Part shown: positions 13,504-54,742 of the stretch, one piece after another
Numbering within the stretch: the first letter of the stretch is position 1
How the letters are laid out: every line of letters starts with the position of its first letter
Assembly (NCBI GenBank): GCA_029209985.1
Contig: JARGNZ010000013.1
Span: 1-64,000, forward strand
Length of the DNA: 64,000 nt
Direction of reading: 5' to 3'
DNA from: Parvibaculaceae bacterium
Lineage (GTDB): Bacteria; Pseudomonadota; Alphaproteobacteria; Parvibaculales; Parvibaculaceae
Translations under genes and position numbers: made by a program
The notes under the pieces: model-generated
The model's input: only the letters and a program-made list of their open reading frames with translations
What the model was told of the DNA's origin: nothing
Databases searched by the model: none

Positions 13504-13926
13504 ATGAGTAACGCAAAAATTGAAATGAATGATGTGCTGGGGAGTTGGGTGCTTTTAAGCTGTGATGAGCTGAGCGGAGACACCCCCAAAGCCATGTACG
13601 GGGAGACCCCGCAAGGCCAGATTCAATACACCGATGAGGGCCGCATGTCGGCATTTTTAATGAACCCAAATTGGCCAACAGAGGGAGGAGAAGCGACACG
13701 AGACTTCAATCGCTTTTTATCTTATGCCGGCACGTGGGAATTGAAAGACGGCAAGGTGCATCATCAGGTTACCTTTTGCTCGCTCCCCTCCATGATTGGC
13801 CAAACATTGGTGCGCTCAGCCGAATTTGTGGGAGATGAGTTGCATCTGAGAACAGAACCACGCACGAGCAAATCTGGTAAAACCTATGTTCAGCATTTGC
13901 GGTGGGCCAGACCGCTAGCTAAATAA
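13504..13926 (+). CDS. Lipocalin-like domain protein
   Basis: 140 residues. ATG at 13504 with AGGAG eight bases before it. The sequence starts with VLGSWVLLSCDEL, then GETPQGQIQYTDEGRMSAFLMNP, and later GTWELKDGKVHHQV. This is the usual order in the small lipocalin-like family found near oxidoreductases in proteobacteria (GxW motif, G-x-I-x-Y-T-x-x-G-x-M). It probably binds a small hydrophobic ligand in the cytosol, since there is no signal peptide. The stop codon lies inside a 17-bp tandem triplication. The function is otherwise unknown. Confidence 0.72.
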   Translation: MSNAKIEMNDVLGSWVLLSCDELSGDTPKAMYGETPQGQIQYTDEGRMSAFLMNPNWPTEGGEATRDFNRFLSYAGTWELKDGKVHHQVTFCSLPSMIGQTLVRSAEFVGDELHLRTEPRTSKSGKTYVQHLRWARPLAK

Positions 13927-13959
13927 GACCATAGCTAAATTAAGACCGCTAGCTAAGTG
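13909..13959 (+). repeat. Three tandem 17-bp copies across a stop codon
   Basis: Copies start at 13909, 13926 and 13943. Copies one and three begin AGACCGCTAGCTAA and copy two AGACCATAGCTAA. The gene's TAA at 13924-13926 falls at the first junction, so the original end may have been shifted by slippage. Confidence 0.8.
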
Positions 13960-26920: not shown

Positions 26921-28540
26921 ATGAGTAAGTTGAGCGATTCCGAAAACCGTATGGAAGAAGCCACCTCCTACGAGGCCTGGGAAGCAGAGGCGAGAGCCCA
27001 TGATTCGCTGTCAGGCGCGGATGCTTGGAAAGCCAAAGAGCACAGCACGCTTTACGACTACAGTACGTTGCGGATGCGCCTTGCGCGCCTACGGGCACTG
27101 CGCGCGGCTAAAGATTATCGGGGCCTTCTCTTTGCATTGAACGAGGGGATTCACGGCAACTTAGGCGGCATGGGGAAATCGAGCCTCTATACAAAAGCCA
27201 AGCTAGGCACCAAAAACCTCATTGCAGAATATGTCAACGAAGTGTGCGATGCCTTAGAGCAACTCGCAAGCTTGCGCAGCTCCGTCATCAGCAAGGAGGA
27301 AAAAACAGATTTCTTCCATCGCGCCAGTCATTGTTTTGGACGGTCCGCGCTGATGCTCAGTGGTGCCGGTGCGCTAGGCCCATTCCATATGGGAGTGATT
27401 AAAGCCCTCATGGAGCAAGACTTGTTGCCCCGCGTCATTTCTGGTTCGAGCGCAGGGGCATTTGTGGCAGCCCTTGTGGGGACGCACAACAACGACGATC
27501 TGAAATCATTTTTCAACGCAGATATTATCCTCTCCAACCAAGTGGAAAAGGATGAGGGCAATTCTGTATTCAACTGGCCAGACCGCATACAAGCGCAAGA
27601 CTTGCGCGATATGATCGATACATGGGTGCCAGATGTAACATTTGCCGAAGCTTTCCAAATGACAGGGCGCCACATAAATATTTCAGTCGCCCCGCAAAAG
27701 CGGATGCAAGCATCTCGCCTTTTGAATGCGATCACCTCGCCCAATGTCTTGGTGCCCGAAGCGGTGATGGCATCTTGTGCGGTGCCCGGCGTTTTCCCAC
27801 CGGTCATGCTGATGGCGCGCGACATCGATGGGGAAAAACAACCTTACCTTGCTGAAATGAGATGGATTGATGGCTCCGTAACCGACGATATGCCCGCCAA
27901 ACGGTTGGGGCGTCTGTACGGTGTAAATCACTTCATCGCCAGCCAAACCAACCCTGTCGTTTTGTGGAGCCTACGCGACCCCAACACATCGGGAGGCGTG
28001 CTGGATAATGTGTGGCAGATGGGCAATCGGGCCGCCAAAGAATGGTTCCGCACCACTCAATCCATTTCAAACCGTATGACCACGGCCTTGCCCAAAGCCA
28101 ATTCAATTTTGAATATGTTTCATACGGTCGCCCTTCAAGAATATACCGCAGACATCAATATCATTCCGCGTTATCGGTTTTGGGACCCGCGCAAATTGCT
28201 GGCCCCGCTGGATAAAGAAGAAACGCTGTATCTGATTAATGAAGGGGAAGCGGCAACCTGGCCCCGTATTGAAATGATCCGAAATTGTTCCCAAATCAGC
28301 CATACCTTGGACGGTATTTTGGAAGCAATGGAGGGGGATGTGATCGGTTTGGCACGGTCGCGTGCTCGCAAAGCCATGCCAAAAGCCAAGGCCAAAAGTG
28401 CGCCAGCGGCATCTGCGTCCCATACACCAAAAAGCAGGGCTGTTTCTAAAACGCCAGCAAGGAAAGCCGCCCGCAAGAAACCCGCGCAAACAAAACGGCC
28501 CCCGACCCCAGTTGTCGGCGATCAGGCAGAAGCGGTTTAG
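26921..28540 (+). CDS. Patatin-like phospholipase with DUF3336-type N-terminus and basic tail
   Basis: 539 residues; AGGAG precedes the ATG. The N-terminal region (about 25-130) fits DUF3336, found ahead of patatin domains in triacylglycerol lipases of the SDP1/Tgl3-5 type. The patatin domain has SGAGALGPFHMG (oxyanion, about 147), GSSAG (nucleophile Ser, about 180) and DGSVTDDMP (catalytic Asp, about 319). Expected role: acyl hydrolysis of storage or membrane lipids. Residues 479 to about 530 form a Pro/Ala/Lys-rich tail, with 17 basic residues in the first 50, like histone H1 or PhaF tails. This tail is not part of the lipase fold. Confidence 0.88.
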   Translation: MSKLSDSENRMEEATSYEAWEAEARAHDSLSGADAWKAKEHSTLYDYSTLRMRLARLRALRAAKDYRGLLFALNEGIHGNLGGMGKSSLYTKAKLGTKNLIAEYVNEVCDALEQLASLRSSVISKEEKTDFFHRASHCFGRSALMLSGAGALGPFHMGVIKALMEQDLLPRVISGSSAGAFVAALVGTHNNDDLKSFFNADIILSNQVEKDEGNSVFNWPDRIQAQDLRDMIDTWVPDVTFAEAFQMTGRHINISVAPQKRMQASRLLNAITSPNVLVPEAVMASCAVPGVFPPVMLMARDIDGEKQPYLAEMRWIDGSVTDDMPAKRLGRLYGVNHFIASQTNPVVLWSLRDPNTSGGVLDNVWQMGNRAAKEWFRTTQSISNRMTTALPKANSILNMFHTVALQEYTADINIIPRYRFWDPRKLLAPLDKEETLYLINEGEAATWPRIEMIRNCSQISHTLDGILEAMEGDVIGLARSRARKAMPKAKAKSAPAASASHTPKSRAVSKTPARKAARKKPAQTKRPPTPVVGDQAEAV

Positions 28541-28569
28541 GCCATCTATCATGTAAAGAAGCGGTGCCC

Positions 28570-29613
28570 TTAACCCGGCTCCGCTTCTGATCCGGCAGGG
28601 TTACGCAGCAATCCTCTAAAGGCTTTGCTGGCGTTGGCTTTCCCCTGCACCACATCGTACACTTCTTGGGCAATCGGCATCACAATGCCATGGGTGCGGG
28701 CAAGCTCCATCACCACCGGCGCGCTTTTCACGCCTTCCGCGACCATGTGCATTTCATCAATAATCTCATCGATGGACTGCCCCTGCCCAAGCTTTTCGCC
28801 GACAAACCGATTGCGGCTTTGCGTGCTGGTGCACGTGGCCACTAAGTCGCCCATGCCCGCAAGACCGGAAAATGTTTCTGGTTTGCCGCCCAGCGCAACG
28901 CCTAACCGGGTGACTTCTGCAAGGCCGCGTGTAATCACAGCCGCCCGCGTGTTGTCCCCCGCACCAAGGCCGTCTCCCATACCGACAGCAATGGCAATGA
29001 TGTTTTTGAGGGCACCGCCTAACTCGCAGCCAACAAGGTCGGTATTGGTGTAAACGCGAAAAAGCCCACTTTGAAAAATAGAGCTCAACCCGGTGCACAC
29101 GGTTTCATCTTCCATGGCGAGCACACTGGCCGCAGCGGACCCATCCATAATTTCCCGCGCCAAATTAGGGCCGCTCAACACACCGGGCGGATGTCCCGGA
29201 AGCTCTTGTGCAATCACTTCCGTCATCCGCATGCCCGTGCTTTGTTCAAGCCCTTTGGACAGGCTGATGAGGGGCACCCATGGCCGGATGAATTTTTTTA
29301 CGTCTTTCAGGACGCCGCGAAAGTTCTGCGATGGAATACCCATAACAACAACATCGGCGCTGGACACAGCTTCTTCCAACGATGTTGTGGCACGTAGGCT
29401 TTCGGGCAGTTTGGCGTCTGGCAAATAACGCCGGTTCGTGTGGAGAACATTAATTTCTGTCGCCGCATCCGGGTTGCGAAGCCAAAGTGTACACGGTGCG
29501 TTGCGGGCAACTAAGGCGGCCACGGTGGTCCCCCAAGACCCGCCCCCTAAGACACATACTTTCAAATTGAGTGGATTGTTGCGCTCGTTCCGCACGCGGG
29601 CCGTGTCACTCAT
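28570..29613 (-). CDS. gpsA: Glycerol-3-phosphate dehydrogenase [NAD(P)+]
   Basis: 347 residues; GGGAGAA precedes the ATG. The N-terminal NAD site is VCVLGGGSWGTTVAALVARN (about 19-38). Then come VVMGIPSQNFRG, SLSKGLE, LSGPNLAREIM with the typical GPN, the catalytic Lys region GGALKNIIAIAVGMGDGLGAGDN (about 204-226), and the glycine-rich GLAGMGDLVATCTS. It reduces dihydroxyacetone phosphate to sn-glycerol-3-phosphate, the backbone for phospholipid and triacylglycerol. Its divergent neighbours are wax ester/DGAT and PlsB-like acyltransferases, which consume the product. Confidence 0.95.
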   Translation of the reverse strand: MSDTARVRNERNNPLNLKVCVLGGGSWGTTVAALVARNAPCTLWLRNPDAATEINVLHTNRRYLPDAKLPESLRATTSLEEAVSSADVVVMGIPSQNFRGVLKDVKKFIRPWVPLISLSKGLEQSTGMRMTEVIAQELPGHPPGVLSGPNLAREIMDGSAAASVLAMEDETVCTGLSSIFQSGLFRVYTNTDLVGCELGGALKNIIAIAVGMGDGLGAGDNTRAAVITRGLAEVTRLGVALGGKPETFSGLAGMGDLVATCTSTQSRNRFVGEKLGQGQSIDEIIDEMHMVAEGVKSAPVVMELARTHGIVMPIAQEVYDVVQGKANASKAFRGLLRNPAGSEAEPG

Positions 29614-29961
29614 GCAGTTCTCCCTGTTTGGTGCGGTGTCCGATATCTCATGCGATCAACTGGTGATTGAGAATGAGGGCGGCCCGCGATTGCCTCAAGC
29701 CTACGGGGAGATTTTCGATCTGCCAACCTTCGGTTTGTGTGCAGGTGCAAAAGAATGCGGGTTCAGACCGCTCTAGGTTTACGAGATCTTTCATGTAGGG
29801 CCTCGAATTCTGATTCAAAGCCGAATTTTTACCAGTTAACGGAATTTACCTAGCCTAGCCTCCAGCTATCTGTATACGATGTATGTAGGGAGTAAGGTCC
29901 GAGAGGAACCAGTCATATCGCAAGCGATATGTTGGGCGGGCTCATTGTTTAGCGAGGGATT
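29614..29961. other. Intergenic region, 348 bases, gpsA and WS/DGAT divergent
   Basis: Promoter region of two divergent lipid genes. It holds the CATATCGC-AA-GCGATATG palindrome at 29916-29933 and AT-rich patches around 29815-29880. No other gene is convincing. Confidence 0.5.
29916..29933 (+). promoter_or_regulatory. Perfect 8-bp palindrome before the WS/DGAT gene
   Basis: CATATCGC-AA-GCGATATG. The two arms are perfectly complementary, ending 28 bases before the start codon. It could be an operator or an mRNA leader hairpin. No regulator is known. Confidence 0.4.
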
Positions 29962-31410
29962 ATGAAACGCATTTCCAACACCGATGCGTCCTTTTATTAT
30001 GCTGATACCGGACGCACGCCAAGTGTTGTCGGTGGATTGCTGATCTATGATCAATCAACCCATGGGCGCAAGAAAGTACGTTTCAAAGAAATCCTAGAAT
30101 GGATTGAAGATCGGTTGCATCTCTGGGCACCGTTCCGCCAGCGGTTGGTGAAGGTGCCCTTCGATTTAGGACTGCCCTATCTCGCGGAGGATCCCAATTT
30201 TGATGTTGAGTTCCATGTGCACCACTTGTCGCTGCCAAAGCCGGGGGATTGGCGCCAGCTCTGCATCCTTGCGTCACGTTTGTATTCACGCCCCTTAGAC
30301 CTCAATCGCCCCTTGTGGGAAATCAATGTGATTGAGGGGCTCGATAAAGTCGAAGGTCTGCCAAAGGGAAGCTTCGCCCTCTTAATTAAGCTACATCACA
30401 TTGTGGCCGATGGGGCATCGGCTGTTTCCCTGTTAACGGCGATGCACGCCATGACGGATAGTTTGGCACCGCCGCCACCGCCTGCCGACGGGGGAGTAAA
30501 AAGCAGTGCTCTACCAACAGATAGTTCGTTGTTGATGCGCACCGTGCCGGATTTAATGCGGCAACCTCTCAAGTCAGCAAAGTCTGCTGTGTCACTTATC
30601 AAGGGTGAGCTAAAAGTCGGCAAGAGCAGGAGGGAGAGCAATATTGCCTCCGCTCCAAATGCTCCGCAAACAATTTTTAACAAAGAAGTTTCGCCGTACC
30701 GCGTATTCGATGCATGTGATTTCCAGTTGGAAGATTTTAAGCGCATCAAACGCCTGTTACCGGTTGCCTCTGTCAATGATGTGGCGCTGGCTGTGTGTGG
30801 TGGCGCAATGCGGCGTTATCTCATATCGCGCAATGCATTGCCCAATCAATCTGTCGTCGCGATGTGTCCCATCAACGTGCGCCAAACCAGCGGCGGCGTA
30901 GAATCTGGCAATCAAATATCAGACATGTCTGTGGCCTTGGGAAGCGACATTGAAGATCCGTTGCAACGATTGCAAGCAATCAAGATGCGCACAGATGATG
31001 CTAAGCAATTAGCAGCTTTGCGCGGGGACGATATGCTCGAGCACACAGTCGGTCTCTTCAGCCCTGCAGTGGCCTCATGGTTTTTCAGGTCTGCTGAAGG
31101 CATGAAGTGGATCAGCAAAGTAAAACCGGTGTGTAATACCTTCGTATCAAATGTTCCAGGCGTGCCTTTCGATCTTTATTTCTGCGGAGCGCAAATGCAA
31201 CGCAGCTATGCGATGGCCCCCTTAGGGGACGGCATGGGTATTTTCCATGCCATCACAGGCATCAAAGAAAACATGTCAATCTCAGTTACAGCATGTCGGG
31301 ACATGGTACCCGATCCTGCTTTCTATGCAGAATGTGTGCGCGAGTCATTTGAGGAATATCTCGCGCTATGTGCCGATGAGGACGGCAGCGTTGTGTATCT
31401 GGAAAAATAA
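29962..31410 (+). CDS. Wax ester synthase / acyl-CoA:diacylglycerol acyltransferase
   Basis: 482 residues; GAGGG lies before the ATG. WS/DGAT family: the catalytic HHxxxDG motif is LHHIVADGAS (about 144-153, both His and the Asp intact), then NDVALAVCGGAMRRYL (about 272), CPINVRQ, and the C-terminal NVPGVPFDLYFCGA with PLGDGMGIFHAITG. It esterifies a long-chain alcohol (wax ester) or diacylglycerol (triacylglycerol) with acyl-CoA, at the inner membrane or lipid droplet surface. It is first in the rightward series with the PlsB-like gene (28-base gap) and the HAD-PlsC fusion. Confidence 0.93.
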   Translation: MKRISNTDASFYYADTGRTPSVVGGLLIYDQSTHGRKKVRFKEILEWIEDRLHLWAPFRQRLVKVPFDLGLPYLAEDPNFDVEFHVHHLSLPKPGDWRQLCILASRLYSRPLDLNRPLWEINVIEGLDKVEGLPKGSFALLIKLHHIVADGASAVSLLTAMHAMTDSLAPPPPPADGGVKSSALPTDSSLLMRTVPDLMRQPLKSAKSAVSLIKGELKVGKSRRESNIASAPNAPQTIFNKEVSPYRVFDACDFQLEDFKRIKRLLPVASVNDVALAVCGGAMRRYLISRNALPNQSVVAMCPINVRQTSGGVESGNQISDMSVALGSDIEDPLQRLQAIKMRTDDAKQLAALRGDDMLEHTVGLFSPAVASWFFRSAEGMKWISKVKPVCNTFVSNVPGVPFDLYFCGAQMQRSYAMAPLGDGMGIFHAITGIKENMSISVTACRDMVPDPAFYAECVRESFEEYLALCADEDGSVVYLEK

Positions 31411-31438
31411 GTAAGACGGCTCTGGGGAGGAGACGGAC

Positions 31439-33778
31439 TTGGAAAATACAAATGTAGTGCAAATGTCGGAGAACGAAAGCCGGACGGTTTTCCTAATCGA
31501 AGCGGCAACGTCCTTCGAGCGCGGTACGATTGAAAAATGGATTGCAGATCAACCGCGTTTTGCGGGGAACAAGCATCAGGCAATTTATATAGACCACAAC
31601 CGTCAATCATTGGGCGCACGCGAGCTGGCTGATTTGTTGGCCGCAAATCACGATGAGGGCGGACAGCCATGGCTAGTCCCTTTGCGGCTCATTTGGAAAA
31701 CCTCCCATGCCAACGCAAGCCCGGGTCTGGTGCGCAGTCTCTTGAGCAGTGCTTTTGATAAGCCGGGCAGTGTGTTGCAGCGTCTCGTCTCACGCACCTC
31801 GCCCAGCAGTGTGCAGGTTGTGGAAGGCAAGGGGGCTTATCTCACCGACGTGAAGCAGCGGTTCCATCAAACTTGGGGCTCAGAAGGGGTGCGCGAAAAC
31901 CGCCTACCTGAATTCATCCAACGCCAAGCGCTCATCACCCTCGATCGGGCGGAACGCAAAGTGCGTGGGGCACGTTATAAAATTGCACGACTTTTGATGC
32001 AGGACGTGATGTCCAGTCCCTCATTCCAACGTGATCTCGGTGGCATCGCGGGCACATTGGGCCAATCTCTTTCTGAGGTGGAAGCTGAATCTAAAGCGTA
32101 CCTTGAAGAAATGAGCGCGCGCCAATCGACGTTTGCATTGGATGTGATGTTGGGTCTGCAACGCCGAGCTTGCCAAAGTGCCCATGCCCCCAAAATTGAC
32201 TTCAGACCTGAAGACTTGGTGCGTTTGCAAGAATGGTCAGAAGAGGCCCCAGTTGTCCTCATGGTCACACATAAGTCCATGCTTGATACGATGGCGGTAT
32301 CTACCACACTTTTTGACAACAACATGCCTGTCCCCTTGACCTTTGGGGGCATCAACCTCAACACTATCGGCTTGGGTAAGTTAGCGGCCAATAGTGGCGT
32401 CATCTTTTTGCGCCGCGCCTTTCAAGATAATGAAATCTATAAGGCGACCTTCCGTCGTTATGTTGATTACCTCATTGAAAAACGTTTCTCTTTGATGTGG
32501 GCGCTGGAGGGCACGCGCTCCCGCACGGGTAAGCTGTTGCCGCCACGATACGGCCTCATGAATTATGTGGTGGAATCGATCCTCCGCACCAAAGTCCACA
32601 ATTTACGCTTTGTGCCGGTTTCTATTTCTTATGACCAGATTACAGAAGTTGATGATTATGTTATCGAGCAGCGCGGAGAAGATAAAAAGCCAGAAGGGGC
32701 CGGGTGGCTCTTACGGTTCTTAAACGGTAAAGGCTCGAAAAATAAAATCTACATGCGCATCGGGGAGCCGTTGCAAGCGACAGATATAATGCCCGCAGAA
32801 AAGCTCAATGAAGCCCTGCCTGATGACGAAAAGAAAAAGCTGGTTCAGCAAATTGGTCTGCAATCTGCAAATCGTTTGAATGAGGCGACGCCGATCAACC
32901 TCACCGCCTTGCTGACCCTCATCTTGCTGGCCAATGGCCCGCGCGCCCGGACCTTGGAAGGGTTGACCAAAACCGTGCAGGGGTGGATGGAGCTTGTCGA
33001 GCGGCGTAACATTCCTGTGGTCGGTGCAAGTTCTATTTGCACAACAGAGGAAGTGACGCAAACTTTAGAAGCCCTGGAAGAGCATGGAGTGGTGACCCAC
33101 CATGATTCTGTGTTGGGCGCTGTCTACCGCATCGACAGCGGCCAATATCATAAGGCTGCTTATTACCGGAACACCGTTGTCCACTTCTTCGTCACTGATG
33201 CCATCATCGAATTGTCCTTGCTGCATGCAATGGATCAAGTCGATAGTGAGCTTGCATTCTGGCGCGAAGCATTGGGGCTGCGCGACCTTCTCAAGTTTGA
33301 GTTTTATTTCCCACCCCGCGAAGACTTTTTGAAAGAAGTGCGTGAGAAGCTCGCTGAACGCGATCCTAATTGGCAAGAGCTGTTGCTGGCCGGAGACGCC
33401 AAAGCACGTAGTTTGCTGGGAAGCTCTATGCCGTTGGTCGCTCAAGGTGTCTTGCGCTCTTTCATCGATGCTTACCAAGTTGTGGGGGATACGTTGGTCC
33501 AGCGCGGCACCGCACCCGTCACTGACAAGAAAGAGTTTCTAAGGCATTGCCTAGAGGTCGGGACACAAGCCCAGCTTTTACAAAGAATTTTTTCAGAGGA
33601 ATCGTTGTCTCTGCCGCTCTATGACACAGTATATAAATTGGCGGGACACATTAACCTACTGACCGGCGAGAACGAAAATTTGGTTGAAGATCGGATCGCA
33701 TTTGCCGATCAGGTACGCTCTGTTAATCGTCGATTGGATATACTGTTGGGACTTTCTGTGAGCCGCCAGACAGATTAG
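31439..33778 (+). CDS. PlsB-like glycerol-3-phosphate acyltransferase, TTG start
   Basis: 779 residues. The TTG at 31439 has the strongest ribosome site around, GGGGAGGAG with a six-base gap; an ATG eight codons later has none. Acyltransferase blocks in order: VVLMVTHKSMLDTMAV (HX4D, about 279), GLGKLAANSGVIFLRR (about 306), MWALEGTRSRTGKLLPPRYG (about 356), and LRFVPVSISYDQ (about 392). This is the PlsB order. It would put the first acyl chain on glycerol-3-phosphate at the membrane. The long C-terminus (450-779) fits PlsB. It lies in the same operon as the wax ester synthase. Confidence 0.88.
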   Translation: MENTNVVQMSENESRTVFLIEAATSFERGTIEKWIADQPRFAGNKHQAIYIDHNRQSLGARELADLLAANHDEGGQPWLVPLRLIWKTSHANASPGLVRSLLSSAFDKPGSVLQRLVSRTSPSSVQVVEGKGAYLTDVKQRFHQTWGSEGVRENRLPEFIQRQALITLDRAERKVRGARYKIARLLMQDVMSSPSFQRDLGGIAGTLGQSLSEVEAESKAYLEEMSARQSTFALDVMLGLQRRACQSAHAPKIDFRPEDLVRLQEWSEEAPVVLMVTHKSMLDTMAVSTTLFDNNMPVPLTFGGINLNTIGLGKLAANSGVIFLRRAFQDNEIYKATFRRYVDYLIEKRFSLMWALEGTRSRTGKLLPPRYGLMNYVVESILRTKVHNLRFVPVSISYDQITEVDDYVIEQRGEDKKPEGAGWLLRFLNGKGSKNKIYMRIGEPLQATDIMPAEKLNEALPDDEKKKLVQQIGLQSANRLNEATPINLTALLTLILLANGPRARTLEGLTKTVQGWMELVERRNIPVVGASSICTTEEVTQTLEALEEHGVVTHHDSVLGAVYRIDSGQYHKAAYYRNTVVHFFVTDAIIELSLLHAMDQVDSELAFWREALGLRDLLKFEFYFPPREDFLKEVREKLAERDPNWQELLLAGDAKARSLLGSSMPLVAQGVLRSFIDAYQVVGDTLVQRGTAPVTDKKEFLRHCLEVGTQAQLLQRIFSEESLSLPLYDTVYKLAGHINLLTGENENLVEDRIAFADQVRSVNRRLDILLGLSVSRQTD

Positions 33779-33860
33779 GGCGGCTATAAATAAAGGGCTG
33801 AATTCAGCCGATTTGGAAGATTTTAGGGCCGCTGAAACTGCGAGCGTAAAGGAAAAGACC

Positions 33861-35336
33861 ATGTCGACGTATCGTTTTTTGATCGATGAAGTGGAAAAAG
33901 GCCCGTCGGGATCACATATCGCGGCATTTTTCGACATGGACCGGACAGTCATTTACGGGTTTTCGGCTCAAGATTTGTTAATTGAACAGGTACGCTCTGG
34001 TGAGTTGTCAGTACCCGGTTTGGCAGATCAAGTAACCCAAGCGGTGAAATTCTCGCGCGGGCGTATTGGCTTTGAATCTATGGTGTCCAGTTCGGTGAAA
34101 CATTTGCGCGGTCAGCTTGATGAGCGCAACTATGAATTTGGCCAAAAGGTTTTTGAGAAACGCGTCGCTTCCCGTATCTATCCAGAAGCACGGATGCTGA
34201 TTGATGCGCATTTAGAAAAAGGCCACACAGTTGTCATCGTGTCCGCCGCCACGCCGTATCAGGTGGAGCCCGTGGCCAAAGATTTAGGTGTGCCGAGTTT
34301 TCTGTGCACCCATCTTGAAGTCGAGAATGGCATTTGCACAGGCCGGGTGATGGAGCCAGCATGTTACGGCGAAGGTAAATCCATCGCGGTGCTGAAATTT
34401 ATCGAGGACAATCACGCAGAGCTTTCCGAAAGCTTTTTCTATACGGACGGTCATGAAGATCTGCCCTTGTTGGAACTGGTCGGGCGTCCGCGTCCCCTCA
34501 ACCCTGATAAAAAGCTCACGCGGGTAGCCAAAGCCCGCGACTGGCCGATCAGCCGTTTTGAAGGCCGGGGCCGCACGAGCACACAAGAAATGGCCCGCAC
34601 AACACTGGCCTATGCCAGCGCCATTCCAGCCGCAGGGGCTGCCGTTGCCGCCTACTCTGCCAATGGCTCGGCCCGTCAGGCCCGCAACTTGTTCAATACG
34701 TTATGGTGCGAAATGTCTGCCGCCGCCATTGGTCTCACCCTATCGGTGGAAGGCACAGAAAATTTGTGGAACCACCGTCCGGCCGTCTTTATGGCCAATC
34801 ACCAAAGTGCGGTGGATGCCATTGCAGTGATGAAATTATTGCAGGGCGATTTCACAAGCATTGCCAAAAAAGAAGTGCGTTCGCAGCCTTTCATTGGCCA
34901 AGTCGCTGAGGCCATGGGCACCATTTTTGTCGATCGCAAAAACAATAAGAAAGCCCGTGAGGCATTGGCCCCGGCTGTCAACGCATTGAAGAATGGCACG
35001 TCGATTATGATTTTCCCGGAAGGGACACGCAGCCCCACCAACAAATTGTCGAAATTCAAAAAAGGGGGGTTCCACATTGCCATGCAGGCTGGCGTGCCGA
35101 TTGTGCCGATTGTGTTGAAAAATACGACGGATGCCATGCCAAAGGGCGCTATTTTTGCGCGCCCTGCCACAGTGCATGTGGAGGTTCTCCCCGCGATCCA
35201 AACAACCGATTGGGACATTGATGACCTTGATGATCATATCGCTGAAATTCGACAGCAATTTTTGACATCTCTCGATCAAGAAAACCCGACCAAGCCACAA
35301 GACTTCATCCGACTCAAAGTCAGCGGTGAAGGCTAG
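33861..35336 (+). CDS. Fusion of HAD-IB phosphatase and PlsC-type acyltransferase
   Basis: 491 residues from the ATG at 33861 (AAGGAAAAG upstream). Domain 1 (about 15-225): HAD-IB, FFDMDRTV with the nucleophilic Asp, VIVSAATPYQVEPVAKDLG with motif II Ser, FYTDGHEDLPLLE with motif IV acids. Domain 2 (about 275-470): PlsC, NHQSAVDAIAV (HX4D), FVDRKNNKKA, MIFPEGTRSPTNKLSKFKKG, and PIVPIVLKN. Such fusions exist in mycobacteria and other actinobacteria. It could acylate lysophosphatidate and then dephosphorylate phosphatidate to diacylglycerol, feeding the DGAT. The phosphatase substrate is inferred. It follows PlsB by 82 bases. Confidence 0.9.
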   Translation: MSTYRFLIDEVEKGPSGSHIAAFFDMDRTVIYGFSAQDLLIEQVRSGELSVPGLADQVTQAVKFSRGRIGFESMVSSSVKHLRGQLDERNYEFGQKVFEKRVASRIYPEARMLIDAHLEKGHTVVIVSAATPYQVEPVAKDLGVPSFLCTHLEVENGICTGRVMEPACYGEGKSIAVLKFIEDNHAELSESFFYTDGHEDLPLLELVGRPRPLNPDKKLTRVAKARDWPISRFEGRGRTSTQEMARTTLAYASAIPAAGAAVAAYSANGSARQARNLFNTLWCEMSAAAIGLTLSVEGTENLWNHRPAVFMANHQSAVDAIAVMKLLQGDFTSIAKKEVRSQPFIGQVAEAMGTIFVDRKNNKKAREALAPAVNALKNGTSIMIFPEGTRSPTNKLSKFKKGGFHIAMQAGVPIVPIVLKNTTDAMPKGAIFARPATVHVEVLPAIQTTDWDIDDLDDHIAEIRQQFLTSLDQENPTKPQDFIRLKVSGEG

Positions 35337-41297: not shown

Positions 41298-44200
41298 ATG
41301 AAAAAGATTCTCATCGCAAACCGGGGCGAGATCGCAATTCGCATCGCCCGTGCAGCCGCTGAATGTCAGCGCTCATCTGTCGCCATTTATGCACCCGACG
41401 ATGCGCGCTCCCTGCATGTGAAAGCTGCCGATGAAGCGATTGCGCTAACCGGCCAAGGGGCAGCTGCCTATTTGGATGCAGACCAAATAATTGCCATTGC
41501 TCTGTCGGTCGGCGCAGATGCCATCCATCCCGGTTACGGTTTTTTGAGTGAGAACGCCGACTTTGCAAATCAATGCGCACAAAATGGCATCACCTTCATC
41601 GGGCCAAATGCCAAAGCACTCGATGTGTTTGGAGATAAGGTCAAAGCACGTGCGTTAGCCGCTGACGTTGGCGTGCCCTTGTTGCCGGGCACAAATGGGC
41701 CAACCAGCTTGGCAGAAACACGCACCTTCTTCACCTCACTGGGAGACAATGCCGCGATCATGATTAAGGCGGTCGCAGGCGGTGGAGGGCGCGGCATGCG
41801 ACCTGTCACTTCACTCGATGATATTGATGAAGCCTATGAGCGTTGCCAATCAGAAGCCGCCGCAGCCTTTGGCATTGGTGATGTCTATGTTGAGCAGCTC
41901 ATCACGAAGGCGCGCCACATCGAAATTCAAATCGTTGGGGATGGCAACACCGTCATTCATCTCGGGGAGCGTGAATGTTCGTTGCAACGCCGCCATCAAA
42001 AGTTGGTGGAAGTGGCGCCCAGCCCAACTCTGGCACCAGCACTCCGCGACAAACTCACCCAAGCAGCCCTCAAGCTTGCACAAGCAACACAGTATAATAG
42101 CCTCGGGACGTTTGAGTTTTTGATCGACGCGCAAGGCGGGGCGGATGCGTCGTTTGCTTTCATGGAAGCAAACCCGCGTTTGCAGGTTGAGCATACTGTC
42201 ACCGAAGAAATTACCAGCATCGATTTGGTGGCGACCCAAATCCACATCGCGGCAGGCCAAAGCCTGAGGGATCTCGGCTTGAGCCAAGAGAGCTATCAGC
42301 CGCGCGGCCATGCGGTGCAAATTCGGATCAATATGGAAACCATGGATGCCCAAGGTGAGGCAAAACCAGCAGGCGGCATTCTCAAGCGTTTCACCGCGCC
42401 CTCAGGTCCCGGCATTCGCGTCGACAGCTTTGGCTATCAAGGATATCAAACTAGCCCCAATTACGATTCATTGTTGGCCAAGCTGATCGCATGGTCGCCG
42501 AGTGCAAATTATACGGATGCCGTGAATCGGGCATACCGGGCGGCCTGTGAATTTCAAATTGAAGGGGTGGCAACAAATTTGCCTTTCCATCTGAACCTTC
42601 TCAAGCGGTCTGACTTCCAAGCCAACGACGTATATACAAACTTTATTGCCGACCATGCAGTAGAATTGGTGGGGCAAGCATCCCATAGCAACCACTTCTT
42701 TGAAGAGGAAGGCGACGGGCAAGCTACAGGGCAGGCCGCCGCGATGGAAGGGCCTGCGGGAACAAGCTCCGTACCAGCGCCCATGCAAGGACGGGTGATT
42801 TCGGTGGATGTAGCCGAAGGAGATGAGGTGGCCTTGGGTCAGCAAGTTGCCGTGATCGAAGCCATGAAAATGGAGCATACAATCACAGCCAATATTTCTG
42901 GTATTGTGCGCCAAGTAAATGCAGCCCCGGATGATGTTCTCTTTGAAGGCACCTCGCTCTTTTTTATGGAAGAACGTGAGGTGGCACCAGATGCCTCTTT
43001 GCAAGAAGAAGAGGTGGATCTGGATCATATCCGTCCCGATCTGCAAGAGGTGATCGATCGGGTGAATACAGGCTTGGATGAGCACCGCCCCGATGCCGTG
43101 GCCCGCCGGCGCAAACGCAATCAACGTACAACCCGTGAAAACATCGCTGACCTGTGTGATGAAGATAGTTTCATCGAGTATGGGGGCATGGCTCTGGCCG
43201 CCCAGCGTCGCCGTCGCTCCATGGAAGATCTCATCAAAATGAGCCCTGCCGATGGTATGGTCACAGGCATTGGGTCCGTGAACGGTGACATGTTTGAAGA
43301 TGTAGACAGCCGCGCCATGGTGCTGGCCTATGACTTTACAGTGTTCGCTGGCACCCAAGGGGGCATGAACCACAAAAAGACAGATCGAATGCTCGATGTG
43401 GCCGAAGAGTGGAATTTGCCCATTGTTCTGTTTGCAGAAGGGGGCGGCGGGCGTCCCGGCGACACAGATATTCCCGCCGTAGCTGGACTGGATACGCCAT
43501 CCTTTATTCGCCTTGCCCAAATGAATGGACGGGTGCCGCTGGTCGGTGTTGTCTCTGGTAGGTGCTTTGCGGGGAATGCCGCTCTGCTTGGTTGCTGCGA
43601 CACGATTATTGCCGCAGAAGATTCAAACATTGGCATGGGCGGTCCCGCTATGATTGAAGGGGGCGGCTTGGGTGTGTATAGCGCCGATGAAGTTGGCCCC
43701 ATCGACGTGCACCGTAAAAATGGCGTGGTTGATATTGTCGTAAAGGACGAGGCAGAAGCGGTTGCGGCGACGAAAAAATACCTCTCCTATTTCCAAGGGC
43801 CTGTGGAAAATTGGACGGCAGAGGATCAACGCATTTTGCGCTCCCTCATTCCAGAAAACCGTTTGCGGGCGTATGACGTGCGTACCGTCATTGACAACTT
43901 GTGTGATGTCGACAGCGTGTTGGAATTACGCAAAGACTTTGGCATTGGCATTTTAACCTGCCTCGTGCGCATCGAAGGGCGTCCCATGGGGCTTATCGCC
44001 AATAACCCCTACCATTTAGGGGGTGCGATCGATGCACCTGCAGCCGATAAGGCAGCCCGCTTCATGCAGCTTTGCAACACATTTGGATTGCCGATGGTTT
44101 CCCTATGTGACACGCCCGGCTTCATGGTGGGGCCAGACATTGAGGAGACAGCGCAAGTGCGCCATGTCTCCCGCATGTTCATCAATGCAGCGCATATGAA

Positions 44201-44585
44201 AGTGCCGTTCTTTACAGTGGTCTTGCGCAAAGGCTACGGATTGGGCGCTCAAGGCATGGCGGCGGGCAGTTTCCACAAGCCCTTTTTCAATATCTCATGG
44301 CCAACAGGAGAGTTCGGCGGCATGGGCTTAGAGGGGGCTGTGCGGTTGGGTTTCAAAAAAGAAATGGAAGCCATCGAAGACCTAGACGAGCGTGACGCCT
44401 TCTATCAAAAGATGGTCGATGCGATGTATGAAAAAGGCAAAGCCATTAATATGGCATCCTTTTTAGAGATCGACGGGGTCATCGATCCAGAGCAAACACG
44501 CCATTGGTTGGTCCGGGGACTTAAATCTGTGCCAGAGACCAAACGCACGGCCAATACACCTCCTGGGTTTATTGACGCATGGTAA
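41298..44585 (+). CDS. Single-chain biotin-dependent acyl-CoA carboxylase (BC-BCCP-CT)
   Basis: 1095 residues. Domain order: biotin carboxylase (1 to about 450: KKILIANRGEIAIRIARAA, ATP-grasp MIKAVAGGGGRGMRP, FMEANPRLQVEHTVTEEIT), biotin carrier (about 485-560: PAPMQGRVISVDVAEGDEV, EAMKMEHT with biotinyl Lys524), and carboxyltransferase (about 600-1095: FAGTQGGMNHKKTDRM, GGGRPGDTD, LSYFQGP, ANNPYHLGGAID, CDTPGFMVGPDIE). This matches the long-chain acyl-CoA carboxylases described from mycobacteria, homohexamers using long-chain acyl-CoA. It needs biotin ligase elsewhere. AGGGAAA lies before the ATG, and a terminator follows. Confidence 0.93.
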   Translation: MKKILIANRGEIAIRIARAAAECQRSSVAIYAPDDARSLHVKAADEAIALTGQGAAAYLDADQIIAIALSVGADAIHPGYGFLSENADFANQCAQNGITFIGPNAKALDVFGDKVKARALAADVGVPLLPGTNGPTSLAETRTFFTSLGDNAAIMIKAVAGGGGRGMRPVTSLDDIDEAYERCQSEAAAAFGIGDVYVEQLITKARHIEIQIVGDGNTVIHLGERECSLQRRHQKLVEVAPSPTLAPALRDKLTQAALKLAQATQYNSLGTFEFLIDAQGGADASFAFMEANPRLQVEHTVTEEITSIDLVATQIHIAAGQSLRDLGLSQESYQPRGHAVQIRINMETMDAQGEAKPAGGILKRFTAPSGPGIRVDSFGYQGYQTSPNYDSLLAKLIAWSPSANYTDAVNRAYRAACEFQIEGVATNLPFHLNLLKRSDFQANDVYTNFIADHAVELVGQASHSNHFFEEEGDGQATGQAAAMEGPAGTSSVPAPMQGRVISVDVAEGDEVALGQQVAVIEAMKMEHTITANISGIVRQVNAAPDDVLFEGTSLFFMEEREVAPDASLQEEEVDLDHIRPDLQEVIDRVNTGLDEHRPDAVARRRKRNQRTTRENIADLCDEDSFIEYGGMALAAQRRRRSMEDLIKMSPADGMVTGIGSVNGDMFEDVDSRAMVLAYDFTVFAGTQGGMNHKKTDRMLDVAEEWNLPIVLFAEGGGGRPGDTDIPAVAGLDTPSFIRLAQMNGRVPLVGVVSGRCFAGNAALLGCCDTIIAAEDSNIGMGGPAMIEGGGLGVYSADEVGPIDVHRKNGVVDIVVKDEAEAVAATKKYLSYFQGPVENWTAEDQRILRSLIPENRLRAYDVRTVIDNLCDVDSVLELRKDFGIGILTCLVRIEGRPMGLIANNPYHLGGAIDAPAADKAARFMQLCNTFGLPMVSLCDTPGFMVGPDIEETAQVRHVSRMFINAAHMKVPFFTVVLRKGYGLGAQGMAAGSFHKPFFNISWPTGEFGGMGLEGAVRLGFKKEMEAIEDLDERDAFYQKMVDAMYEKGKAINMASFLEIDGVIDPEQTRHWLVRGLKSVPETKRTANTPPGFIDAW

Positions 44586-49473: not shown

Positions 49474-52400
49474 TTAAAGCTGGCTAGGGCGTAAGAGGGA
49501 GCGTTGCGCCGACCCATCTTCTTTTCGATTTTTCCAAAGCGTCCAAAAATTGGCTTTCCATTGTTTGGCTTCGGTCGTTTGGTGCGGATAGTGCTGCGCA
49601 ACCAGAGAAAGAACCTGCTCGCGTTCGAGCGGCGCACTGCGTGAGAAGTTACCATACCCCGCATTAAGATAGACAAGTTCACGGGTGACGAATGTCGGGC
49701 CACTCGGCGCGTCATTTTTGTTTGCGGCCACCGGCACTGCCCCCGTTGCCACTTCATCGATAGAAATTTCAAGCGTTAAATCGTCCGCTCCGTCTCTATT
49801 AAAGTCGGCCAAGGCAATGCGCTTATGGGCAAGAGCGCCATCCGGCGTTATCCGTGGGAGGCGCGCAATAAGGGGCAGGGCATCTGTTGCATCAAAGAAC
49901 GTGCCTGAGCCATCATTCACCAGCAAGCGCAGAACGGTTGGCTGTGTCAAATAAAGCGGTTGATGGGCTTGCGTACCGATAAGCAGGTCAAGATCGCCGT
50001 CCGCGTCAATGTCCCCGTGAGCGACAGACCACACAGTCCAACGAGGGTTGAGCCAAGCGGAATGTTCTGGCAGCGCGTCCTCAGAAACATAATCGAGACG
50101 GCCCTCCGCATTGCTCATGAGCAAGACCAAGGGTTCGCCTTCGCCCCCATCATTCCCCGGACCCATAAAGACATCATCGCGTCCATCATCATTAAAGTCA
50201 GCGATCACAACATGGGTCGGTGCCCGGCGCACCATGCGCAGGTCAGAGCTATCAATCATATCTGTAGAACCAAGCCCTCCTGGACCAAGCGTGACATAAA
50301 GGGTTGGCGGCACATCGGCGTAAAGAGCTTTGGATTTGGTTGAGGACCAAAGGACGAGATAATCTTGGCGGTGATCCCCATTGAACTCGCCCTTATAGAC
50401 ACTTTCCGGCACTAAATCTTCACGCGGTGGTGGGGGCAGGTCCAGCGAAGAAATAGCAACATCGCTCAATTGTTTTGGCAATTGCGGCAGCAGTGGCATC
50501 CGCTTAGCAGACATGGAGGTGGCTTGATTTTCCAACAAAGCTTGTTGGGCAACAATTTCAGCCGAAAGTGCTGTTAACGTGACAGGCTCAGGAGCAGGCA
50601 TCAGCGCCATGTCCGCCATTGCATAGCTCAACGGTGCGTCTGGTTTGTAGGGTGCAAATATTTTGGCCATAAATGCACCAGAAAGAGGTGCCCCCGGCTG
50701 ATAGGAGAATGCCCTAAGAGCCGTGCCTGGCGAGACAGGGGCGCCCGGCTGGTAACCCAGCAGGGTCGTACCGAAAGCAACCGTGAACGGAGCTTCGGGT
50801 TGGTAAGAGAGTGCCGTGGTCGCCAGCTCATAGGTTAGCGGCGTCTGTGCTTGGTAGCGCAAAGTCAATGCGGCGCTGGCAACAGAAAGAGGCGAGTGCG
50901 GTTGATGCCGTAAAGCGCGGCGCGCAATCAAGCTTGTGAACGGAGATTCTGTTTGATACCGCAAGCTGGTGCGGGCGCTTGCATAAGACAGCGGTGAGGA
51001 CGGCAGATGACGAAGCGCCATTCGTGCGTCGGATACCGTAAAGGGGGCCTCCGGCAAACGCTGGAGACTCAGGCCCGCCCCGTAGGCGGACATCGGCGCC
51101 ATCGGTGCATAACGCAAAGCTTGTGAAACTGTCGCAGGCGAAAGTGGCGATTGCGGCGCATACCGAAGCGCGGTTCGCGCATCAGCAACCGTAAACGGCG
51201 CTTCCGGCAGGCGCATGAAACTGCGGGTCGCAAAGTGCGTAGATACGGGAGCTATGGGGGCATAGCGGAGCGTTTTCGCCGCGAAGGCAACAGCAAGCGG
51301 CGGGTGCGGTTGATACTGCAAGGCCCCGCGAGCGGCCAGAGGTGTCATGGGCGCGCTTGGCAAATAGCTGAAGGCGTACTGCGCATCTGCTAGGGTGAGC
51401 GGAGGTTCAGGCAAGCGGGTGAAAACTGTTTGAACATCTTGAGATGTGAAAGGCGCTTGCGGTTGGAAGGCCAGTGCCAATTGAGCCATGGATGATGCGA
51501 ATGGCGCTTCAGGGTTTCGTTTTAACAGTGCACGCATTTGCTGAGAGCTGAGGGGCGCCGTGACATCGTAGCTCAGGAATGCTTTGGCGGTTGCCCCTTC
51601 AAACGGAGCGTTGGGGGCAAAGCGCAAAGTGTGCGCGGCAACCAAGTGCGTGAACGGTGGTTCTGGCAGGCGCTGAAGAGCGGCACTGGTAAATGCTGTA
51701 GGCAGCGGTGCAGAAGGTTGATACCGTAAAGTTGCCGTGCCGACGAGCGCCGTGAGAGGCGCAGCCGGTTGATAGCGCAACAGAGTAGAGATATCTGCGA
51801 CTGTGAATGGTAGTTCCGGTTTCCGCTGAAGAGCTGCCGTCATCGTCGCTGCGCTCAACGGGGCTGATGCTGAGTAGCGCAACATCTTGCGGGCGTCCGC
51901 CAGCACCATTGGAGCAGAAGGTGCATAGCGCAAAGCTACAACAGCATTAAGATATGTGAATGGCGGTTCTGGTTTGCGGACAAAAGCCAATCGTGCGGTG
52001 TGGGCGCTGAGAGGCGCAGAAGGCTGGAACCCAAGGGCTCGGCGTGCCAAAACCGCATCAACCGGTGTTTGAGGTAAATGCCGGAGCATTTTCTGAGCAA
52101 CCTGCGCATTCATAGGAGCCATTGGCTGATGGCGCATCAAAGTCCCCACGGTGTGGGCTGAGAGAGGGGCGTCCGGTCTATAGGCGAAGGCCGGGGCAAT
52201 AGCTGCATAAGAGAACGGCGCTTCAGGTTTGCGCTGAAGCAGGTCGCTCATGGCTCGTGAGGTGAGAGGCGCGACAACTTCATATGTCAGGGCTGTGCGC
52301 GCAGCTGCAGCACTCAAGGGAGCGTCGGGTTGATATTGAAGCACCTGCTCGCTCGCAGAAAAAGTGAGTGGAGGTTCAGGAAGGCGATTAAACGCGCTGA

Positions 52401-53655
52401 GAATAGTCTGAATGCTCAAGGGTGCTTGTGGTTGATATTTCAAGCTGGTCTGTGCAGTGCCAAGAGCGATAGGCGCATTTGGTTGGAAACGTAATGCTTG
52501 AGCAGCCAAATCATATTGGAATGGCGATTCAGGTAGGCGTGCAAATAAATCAGAAACTGCGTGGGATGAATAGGGCGCGGCAGGTTGGAAAGCCAACATC
52601 ATCCGGCCATTCGAATATGTGAATGGAGCCTCAGGTTGCGAGGCCAGCAGCTGACGCATGGTAAGCGAGCTGAGGGGGGCAGCGGCTTCATAGCTGAGCG
52701 CCCGACGGGCCGCAGCATAGGTGAGAGGTGAGACCGGCTGGTGCTGAAGGGCGCGATGGGCAATCAGGGGTGTGAACGGCGGTGCTGCAAGTCTGCCAAA
52801 TGCGACCACGGCCATATCCCACGAAAGAGGGGCGGAAGGTTGGAAACGCAAAACAGCGGTTGCCCCTGTGTGCCCAAGGGGGGCGGTCGGCGCATAGCGC
52901 AACGCATGGGTGGCTGAGGCATACGCCAAGGGAGCGGAGGGCTGGAATTTGAAACGAGAAGCTGCAGCCGTCGCGGACAGAGGGGCTGAGGGCTGATAGA
53001 CAAATGCGCGCCGCAACGTGAGTTTTGTGAATGGAGGTTCAGGGTTGTGCTGTTTTACGATTTCTTTGACCGTCGTCTGTTTCGGCTCTGGAGGGGCCGT
53101 AACCACCAATGGCTTTTCAGGGGCGACCGTCTTTTTAGGGGCTACAGCCTGTTGAGGGGCCACGACTTGTTGAGGAGCCACGGCTTTTGCACGCACAGCA
53201 GGTGTGGGGGTGGTTTTCGGGGCTGTCGCTGTTTGCGGCGGCACCGCAGGTGCGAGAACCGGGGCGGGCTCTGTAAGGACGGCTGGGCGCTTCAAACGCA
53301 GGACAGGCCATCCTGTCCCTGGGGCGCGCGGGGCGCTCGTTTCCGGCAGATTGATAATGACACTTGGGTCTGCTGGACGCACGCTGTCTCTGGGGCGCTC
53401 AACGGCGGGTGCTTTTTGCAACCGCGTAGGCAGCCGCAACTGGATGCGCTGGGTCGCACTTAAAGGGGCGATGGGAGGCATATCTGTGGCTTGAGTGCCG
53501 CTTGGCTCTTGGCTTGATGCGAGCGAGGGCGGCCACTTCAAGTTAACTTTTCCAGTCGGGGGTTGAGCAGAAAGATCCGGAATCGAAGAGAACGATGCGA
53601 GGGAAATTCCCAAGACCGTTGCCCCGACATATCGGAAAATCTGCTTTGCCAGCAT
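49474..53655 (-). CDS. Giant exported repeat protein: 48 x 17-residue repeats plus FG-GAP domain
   Basis: 1393 residues; AAGG precedes the ATG. Layout: signal peptide (1 to about 30), Pro/Ala-rich linker (31-203, with short VAPQQ/VAPKK repeats near 158-182), 48 tandem units of 17 residues (204-1020, one single-residue insertion before unit 48), a short linker, then an FG-GAP/VCBS-like domain (about 1088-1335) with calcium-loop motifs EFNGDHRQD, DFNDDGRDD, DIDADGDLD and DFNRDGADD. Unit consensus is about [QLK]-P-x-[AS]-P-[LF]-[ST]-x-x-x-A-x-x-x-L-x-Y. Pro5 and Leu/Phe15 are kept in all 48. FG-GAP domains elsewhere bind calcium and partners on cell surfaces. The repeat belongs to no family I know. 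A surface or periplasmic scaffold is a guess. Divergent from hsp20. Confidence 0.85.
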   Translation of the reverse strand: MLAKQIFRYVGATVLGISLASFSSIPDLSAQPPTGKVNLKWPPSLASSQEPSGTQATDMPPIAPLSATQRIQLRLPTRLQKAPAVERPRDSVRPADPSVIINLPETSAPRAPGTGWPVLRLKRPAVLTEPAPVLAPAVPPQTATAPKTTPTPAVRAKAVAPQQVVAPQQAVAPKKTVAPEKPLVVTAPPEPKQTTVKEIVKQHNPEPPFTKLTLRRAFVYQPSAPLSATAAASRFKFQPSAPLAYASATHALRYAPTAPLGHTGATAVLRFQPSAPLSWDMAVVAFGRLAAPPFTPLIAHRALQHQPVSPLTYAAARRALSYEAAAPLSSLTMRQLLASQPEAPFTYSNGRMMLAFQPAAPYSSHAVSDLFARLPESPFQYDLAAQALRFQPNAPIALGTAQTSLKYQPQAPLSIQTILSAFNRLPEPPLTFSASEQVLQYQPDAPLSAAAARTALTYEVVAPLTSRAMSDLLQRKPEAPFSYAAIAPAFAYRPDAPLSAHTVGTLMRHQPMAPMNAQVAQKMLRHLPQTPVDAVLARRALGFQPSAPLSAHTARLAFVRKPEPPFTYLNAVVALRYAPSAPMVLADARKMLRYSASAPLSAATMTAALQRKPELPFTVADISTLLRYQPAAPLTALVGTATLRYQPSAPLPTAFTSAALQRLPEPPFTHLVAAHTLRFAPNAPFEGATAKAFLSYDVTAPLSSQQMRALLKRNPEAPFASSMAQLALAFQPQAPFTSQDVQTVFTRLPEPPLTLADAQYAFSYLPSAPMTPLAARGALQYQPHPPLAVAFAAKTLRYAPIAPVSTHFATRSFMRLPEAPFTVADARTALRYAPQSPLSPATVSQALRYAPMAPMSAYGAGLSLQRLPEAPFTVSDARMALRHLPSSPLSYASARTSLRYQTESPFTSLIARRALRHQPHSPLSVASAALTLRYQAQTPLTYELATTALSYQPEAPFTVAFGTTLLGYQPGAPVSPGTALRAFSYQPGAPLSGAFMAKIFAPYKPDAPLSYAMADMALMPAPEPVTLTALSAEIVAQQALLENQATSMSAKRMPLLPQLPKQLSDVAISSLDLPPPPREDLVPESVYKGEFNGDHRQDYLVLWSSTKSKALYADVPPTLYVTLGPGGLGSTDMIDSSDLRMVRRAPTHVVIADFNDDGRDDVFMGPGNDGGEGEPLVLLMSNAEGRLDYVSEDALPEHSAWLNPRWTVWSVAHGDIDADGDLDLLIGTQAHQPLYLTQPTVLRLLVNDGSGTFFDATDALPLIARLPRITPDGALAHKRIALADFNRDGADDLTLEISIDEVATGAVPVAANKNDAPSGPTFVTRELVYLNAGYGNFSRSAPLEREQVLSLVAQHYPHQTTEAKQWKANFWTLWKNRKEDGSAQRSLLRPSQL
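50596..53046 (-). repeat. 48 tandem 51-bp coding repeats
   Basis: The DNA behind residues 204-1020 of the giant protein. Every unit is 51 bp except one 3-bp insertion before the last. Identity between units is modest at the DNA level, while the amino-acid pattern is strict. This points to old duplication kept by selection on structure, not recent slippage. Confidence 0.9.
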
Positions 53656-53988: not shown

Positions 53989-54405
53989 ATGACCCGTGTG
54001 GTTCAATTTAATAGCCCCTTTTTGCTGGGGTTTGACCAAGTCGAGCGTTTGCTGGACCGGGTGACAAAATCAGCAGAAGGCTATCCTCCTTATAATGTTG
54101 AGCAGCAAGTGACGGAAGAAGGGCAAAAATTGTCCATAACTCTGGCTGTTGCAGGCTTTGATCCCTCTGATTTATCTGTGACCATCGAAGAGCGCCAACT
54201 CGTCATTCGGGGGCGCCAAGGGGAGGATGAGGATAAGACCTTCCTTCACCGTGGGATCGCGGCCCGACAGTTTCAGCGGACATTTGTGCTGGCAGACGGT
54301 ATGATTGTAGAGGAAGCCAAATTAGAAAATGGCTTATTGACCATTTCCTTGTTCCGGCCGGAACCGTCCAGCCTGGTTCAAACCATTCCGATAACACAAG
54401 CTTAG
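53989..54405 (+). CDS. Small heat-shock protein, Hsp20/alpha-crystallin family
   Basis: 138 residues; AAAGGA precedes the ATG. Alpha-crystallin domain (about 36-130): PYNVEQQVTEEGQKLSITLAVAGFDPSDLSVTIEERQLVIRGRQ, then HRGIAARQFQRTFVLADGMIVEEAKLENGLLTISLFRPE, the IbpA-like strand order. The N-terminus (FNSPFLLGFDQVERLLDRV) is the usual alphaproteobacterial one. It acts as an ATP-independent holdase for unfolded proteins in the cytosol. A sigma-32-like promoter lies upstream. The next gene encodes a DUF1150 protein, a pairing widespread in the class. Confidence 0.94.
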   Translation: MTRVVQFNSPFLLGFDQVERLLDRVTKSAEGYPPYNVEQQVTEEGQKLSITLAVAGFDPSDLSVTIEERQLVIRGRQGEDEDKTFLHRGIAARQFQRTFVLADGMIVEEAKLENGLLTISLFRPEPSSLVQTIPITQA

Positions 54406-54466
54406 GCGTGTGCAAGGATCCGTTTAAGTCGAGCGTTTGAAGAAATCGCGGTCAAAGGAGTACGAC

Positions 54467-54742
54467 GTGCACAATTCATTTGAAGATACATCCGCAAAAA
54501 CTGGCGAAACCATGAGCGAAGAGGCTTTATTGGCTTTGGGCGTGCAGAAAATTGTCTACATCCGCGAAACCACGTTGGAAGAGCTGGGCGACGATCTGCA
54601 CGGTCAGATTGAAATTGGCGAGGATGAAGTGCTGTTCGGCGTTTTCGGCGCTGACGGGTCCCCTTTGGCTGTCCTGAACGACCGTGATGCGGCGTTTGCA
54701 GGGGCGCGTCAGTATAATTTTGAGCCGGTAAGCGTTCACTAA
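54467..54742 (+). CDS. DUF1150 family protein
   Basis: 91 residues. I chose the GTG at 54467, with AAGGAG six bases upstream; an ATG at 54512 (MSEEALLALGVQ) is a possible shorter start. The core MSEEALLALGVQKIVYIRET (about 16-35) followed by GEDEVLFGVFGADGSPLAVLNDRDAAFAGARQYNFEPVSVH is the DUF1150 pattern. Function unknown. It sits 61 bases after hsp20 in the same direction, an arrangement conserved in Alphaproteobacteria, so it is probably heat-induced with it. Confidence 0.85.
   Translation: MHNSFEDTSAKTGETMSEEALLALGVQKIVYIRETTLEELGDDLHGQIEIGEDEVLFGVFGADGSPLAVLNDRDAAFAGARQYNFEPVSVH

Follow-up and report, generated by a model that had tools for sequence, protein, structure and literature searches.

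Organization of the gene and its product

The gene at 49474-53655 on the minus strand of the window (the whole 64,000-nucleotide stretch of DNA analysed here) was present as a single copy in the genome of a Rhodobiaceae-group alphaproteobacterium, 3.09 Mb assembled in 50 contigs, and its orthologue was located at the same locus in a congener, the MAG NORP139 (G001). The features of the gene and its surroundings were as follows.

49474-53655, minus strand: whole gene, 1393 residues, ATG start, single copy in the genome
53557-53655, minus strand: putative Sec signal peptide, approximately residues 1-33, assigned by eye from the sequence
53047-53556, minus strand: Pro-rich N-terminal segment, residues 34-203, from a composition count
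50596-53046, minus strand: array of 48 units of 17 residues, residues 204-1020, consensus QPxAPLSxxxAxxALRY
50296-50595, minus strand: highly conserved neck, residues 1021-1120, dN of 0.04 relative to the congener
49477-50295, minus strand: FG-GAP domain, residues 1121-1393, from PF13517, PF01839 and fold matches
53989-54739, plus strand: neighbours outside the system, genes for Hsp20 and DUF1150, followed by ptsN/hpf/rpoN on the minus strand, from Pfam

The putative signal peptide, as read by eye, consisted of a K/R start, the hydrophobic stretch VGATVLGISLASF and a likely end at ...DLSA, and lacked a lipobox cysteine. The following segment contained 32 Pro and 24 Ala among 169 residues. In the neck, AlphaFold2 predicted a helix of 24 residues (residues 1027-1050, corresponding to model residues 161-184) with a pLDDT of about 71 in 10-residue blocks. 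The open reading frame that the initial annotation had called a giant exported protein was real, although the size label was generous for 1393 residues. No sigma-70-like promoter was matched upstream of the gene.

The C-terminal FG-GAP head

The FG-GAP end proposed from the sequence was supported by both Pfam scores and fold search. PF13517 (FG-GAP_3) matched with 48.5 bits against a curated cut-off of 26.9 (1.4e-12), and PF01839 (FG-GAP) with 36 bits against a cut-off of 22.1 (6e-9). The domain carried three D-x-N/D-x-D-G-x-x-D motifs, with one degenerate motif just upstream. Foldseek and VIA-align matched the head to GlcNAc lectins of the PVL type, CRTAC1 and integrin alpha propellers with Z of 9-12 and rmsd of 4-5 A; the strands were present in the AlphaFold2 model, while the TM-scores were low. 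As the matched ranges covered the FG-GAP part, the fold search was silent on the repeats.

The head resembled the N-terminal beta-propeller family of integrin alpha in sequence, predicted fold and motifs. It differed from the 7-bladed integrin head in comprising only about 270-300 residues, which suggests that it probably has fewer blades, and in being attached to an unrelated array of 48 units. The head is probably Ca-binding, and its ligand would be a glycan or a protein, although fold similarity does not reveal which ligand is bound.

Properties of the 17-residue unit

Recounting confirmed that residues 204-1020 divide into 48 units of 17 residues, the lone single-residue insertion being Y1003 before the last unit. 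The consensus was Q-P-x-A-P-[LF]-[ST]-x-x-x-A-x-x-A-[LF]-R-Y. The counts given previously also held for Pro at position 5 (48/48), a hydrophobic residue at position 6 (48/48) and Pro at position 2 (41/48), but Leu or Phe at position 15, stated to occur in all 48 units, was found in 47, with Met in the unit at residues 493-509. The self-identity of the array at a shift of 51 was 0.34, compared with 0.15 for the highest-scoring of 2000 shuffles tested at shifts of 5-59, and none of the 2000 approached the observed periodicity. When the units of the two species were aligned, position 6 was hydrophobic in 91 of 91 and position 15 in 90 of 91. Positions 2, 4, 5, 6 and 11 were free of charge in both species, and positions 14 and 15 almost so. 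The array contained 104 Pro and 158 Ala among its 817 residues, and the net charge was about +0.6 per unit.

Two types of junction between units were recognized, Y|QPxAPLS and R|xPExPFT. R at position 17 was coupled to E at position 3 in the unit that follows, and E3 was itself coupled to F6 (Fisher p of 7e-6 to 5e-8 per species). The E-type units were never adjacent and were over-represented three units apart in both species (P of about 0.02 each), these signals not being independent evidence as the two species share ancestry. The three-unit spacing is suggestive of, and would fit, approximately three units per superhelical turn.

Two further regularities were seen in the array (window 50596-53046). 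After a unit with M at position 11, the next one was in most cases of the E type. Similar stretches recurred 8 units (136 residues) apart, from about residues 323, 459 and 595, hinting at a trace of an older block duplication.

Selection on the protein

TRF detected no DNA tandem repeat within the 48-unit array. The codons at the invariant Pro5 were mixed (16 CCG, 13 CCT, 10 CCC and 9 CCA), indicating together with the TRF result that the periodicity lies in the protein and not in recent DNA duplication. From unit to unit, synonymous codons for the same residue differed at the rate of random draws (0.75). These randomised synonymous sites and the absence of a DNA tandem repeat indicated an array that is old as DNA and is maintained by selection acting on the protein. 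The comparison with NORP139 gave a dN/dS of about 0.17 for the array, a rough value as dS was about 2; combined with the randomised synonymous sites, it showed that the exact period is under protein-level selection. In the same two species, the neck (dN of 0.04) and the head (0.09) were both far more conserved than the array. Elsewhere in the window, at 13909-13956, a short AT-rich tandem repeat with a period of 17 bp and 2.8 copies was present, which is unrelated to the 17-residue units.

Searches for related repeats

Neither the Pfam, NCBIfam and PHROGs libraries nor the PDB sequences contained a credible match to the units, in agreement with the earlier remark that the unit was unfamiliar. 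FG-GAP was the only family in Pfam, NCBIfam and PHROGs that the protein matched at a useful score, and 43 tiles of four units searched against the profile libraries gave just four single-tile chance matches (best E of 0.017). The 17-residue unit is, as judged by sequence comparison, new to every library searched. Plasmids and viral contigs gave no matches, and the literature search found neither a 17-residue repeat of this type nor FG-GAP in Tepidicaulis.

A four-unit profile searched against 385 genomes of the class and 398 of the phylum found the genome of the window itself and, besides it, only a match in G141, an unrelated alphaproteobacterium. The latter was rejected, being an open stretch of 67 residues inside an intergenic DNA repeat. 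This tandem repeat (L013, 1420-1860) had units of, by a very approximate estimate by eye, 35 bases.

Distribution of the gene and its locus

In a panel of 61 genomes selected by kinship, one congener (G001) encoded the protein, and two genomes from a sister genus encoded the head alone. The repeats occurred in only one other genome, that of NORP139 (Rhodobiaceae), with 45 units. The scan of named genomes yielded NORP139, Tepidicaulis marinus and Rhodobiaceae UBA4490, and beyond these only distant FG-GAP proteins. That homologues are confined to related genomes was supported by the kinship panel and the class and phylum scans. Within the genomes searched, the array is restricted to a single genus, the sample of this genus being small (two genomes). 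Unit-by-unit alignment of the two arrays revealed differences of 34, 34 and 51 residues, that is, the gain or loss of 2, 2 and 3 whole units. Outside the array, the indels between the two species were of 3, 12 and 5 residues, those of 3 and 12 lying in the Pro-rich N-terminal segment.

In T. marinus and UBA4490 (L003 and L004), the FG-GAP orthologue occupied the same place beside hpf-ptsN-DUF1150-Hsp20, with a head of 47-48% identity. These proteins shared with the window protein the syntenic head, a putative signal peptide and a long Pro/Ala-containing region before the head. They differed in that this region was an unrelated, low-complexity, Ala/Pro/Glu-rich linker lacking the 17-residue repeats and any clear 17-residue periodicity. 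The neighbour order was kept in genomes of five genera, and the FG-GAP gene adjoined in only two of them (g1 and g4). In the three other genera the neighbours were present, the FG-GAP gene was absent from this place, and profile search found no head in their genomes.

The gene had conserved housekeeping genes as direct neighbours, along with genes for a P450 and an acyl-CoA synthetase. Elsewhere in the window, a single protein of 1095 residues with biotin carboxylase, biotinyl and carboxyltransferase domains was encoded at 41298-44585, followed by a Coq4-like protein, a P450 and an acyl-CoA synthetase. Genes for a patatin with DUF3336, a wax ester synthase/DGAT, a GPAT and a HAD-acyltransferase fusion lay close together on the plus strand at 26921-35336, suggesting a storage-lipid cluster.

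Predicted structure of the repeats

In both species, the mean hydrophobicity over positions 8-17 gave its largest moment at 90-100 degrees, the pattern of an amphipathic alpha-helix. An AlphaFold2 model of 12 units, built on an alignment with repeats from only two species, placed one helix of 7-10 residues in 12 of 12 units with a mean pLDDT of 38. When 8 units were modelled together with the neck and the head (20 alignment rows, again with repeats from these two species), all 8 were helical at pLDDT 31-50; in the same run, about half of the blocks of the FG-GAP domain, serving as a control, reached pLDDT 70-84. The earlier suggestion that each unit forms a single short helix interrupted at P-x-x-P agreed with the moment and with both models, all of these being predictions. 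The regular solenoid raised as a possibility is so far not supported, as the packing was predicted without confidence in either run.

Alpha-solenoid repeats such as TPR, HEAT, Armadillo and Sel1 have units of approximately 34-42 residues with two or three helices. The array resembled them in its tandem short helices, conserved hydrophobic positions and inter-helix loops, but its unit had 17 residues and one short helix, no sequence match to them was found, and packing was not predicted. Bacterial ice nucleation proteins are described (PMC9418140) as having 16-residue repeats modelled as a beta-solenoid with outward rows of Thr/Tyr. Compared with that description, the array was likewise long, bacterial and composed of short repeats of near-constant length, whereas its 17-residue unit was broken by Pro and predicted to be helical. 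For artificial perfect repeats, AlphaFold2 is reported to return beta-solenoids that are confident yet unrealistic (PMC11795689). No confident beta-solenoid of this kind appeared in our models.

Function of the repeat array

Proteins in which an exported repeat stalk bears a propeller-type head are already known. The product of 49474-53655 is probably a lineage-specific long stalk or spacer before the FG-GAP head. We favor a stalk of stacked short helices spacing this head over a flexible tether or a docking array, while rating its chance at about one half. In this mechanism, the protein would be exported, and the long repeat stalk would hold a head of the integrin-alpha-like beta-propeller type. 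Each unit would begin with a hinge, P-x-x-P, and continue as a single short amphipathic helix with a Ser/Thr cap. A hydrophobic stripe would be created by the large residue at position 6, the small residue at 11 and Leu/Phe at 15; along it, adjacent units may stack into a helical rod of semi-regular form, which would determine how far the head lies from the N-terminal end. A folded array is favored by the strict register and the large hydrophobic residues under purifying selection, and disfavored by the low confidence of AlphaFold2 and by the sister genus having a linker. It also counts against the stalk that neither a partner nor a surface anchor nor a dedicated secretion system was identified for the protein. 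The more specific proposal that units of one helix and a P-x-x-P turn stack into an undescribed alpha-solenoid, with approximately three units per turn and forming a long rod in one genus, is possible but doubtful.

A rigid rod may be dispensable, given that the linker on which the sister genus relies is apparently disordered. The array could instead be a flexible tether of nascent helices linked by P-x-x-P, which do not pack and work like the Ala/Pro/Glu-rich linker. The disorder-level AlphaFold2 confidence of the repeats, the low-complexity sequence at the orthologous position in Tepidicaulis and the richness of the array in Pro and Ala agree with such a tether. We nevertheless consider it rather unlikely, since a simple tether would require neither hydrophobic residues at both positions 6 and 15 in 90 or more of the 91 units, nor the near-absence of charge from 7 of 17 positions, nor an exact 17-residue register kept at the dN/dS given above.

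A multivalent array, in which the helix of each unit docks a periplasmic or surface partner, a membrane or a wall polymer and folds on binding, would account for the amphipathic helices with their conserved hydrophobic stripe and net positive charge, and the regular copies and the changes in unit number between species suit avidity. However, neither a partner nor a repeated cognate domain was identified, and the direct neighbours were the housekeeping, P450 and acyl-CoA synthetase genes, leaving this explanation a low probability. A chance or wrong-frame artefact, of which the weak G141 match is an example and no sign was found for the window ORF, can be practically dismissed, being refuted by the conservation, the 45 units at the same locus in the second species and the dN/dS.

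The significance of the array lies in what tandem-repeat rods teach about how simple sequence becomes regular structure. The two species provide 93 natural units with a strict register and whole-unit indels, and the sister genus has a plain linker at the same place. The window species, NORP139 and Tepidicaulis together form a compact natural experiment on a spacer becoming, or replacing, a regular repeat array. If the units do stack, they would represent an unusually short one-helix repeat, useful to structural biologists and protein designers.
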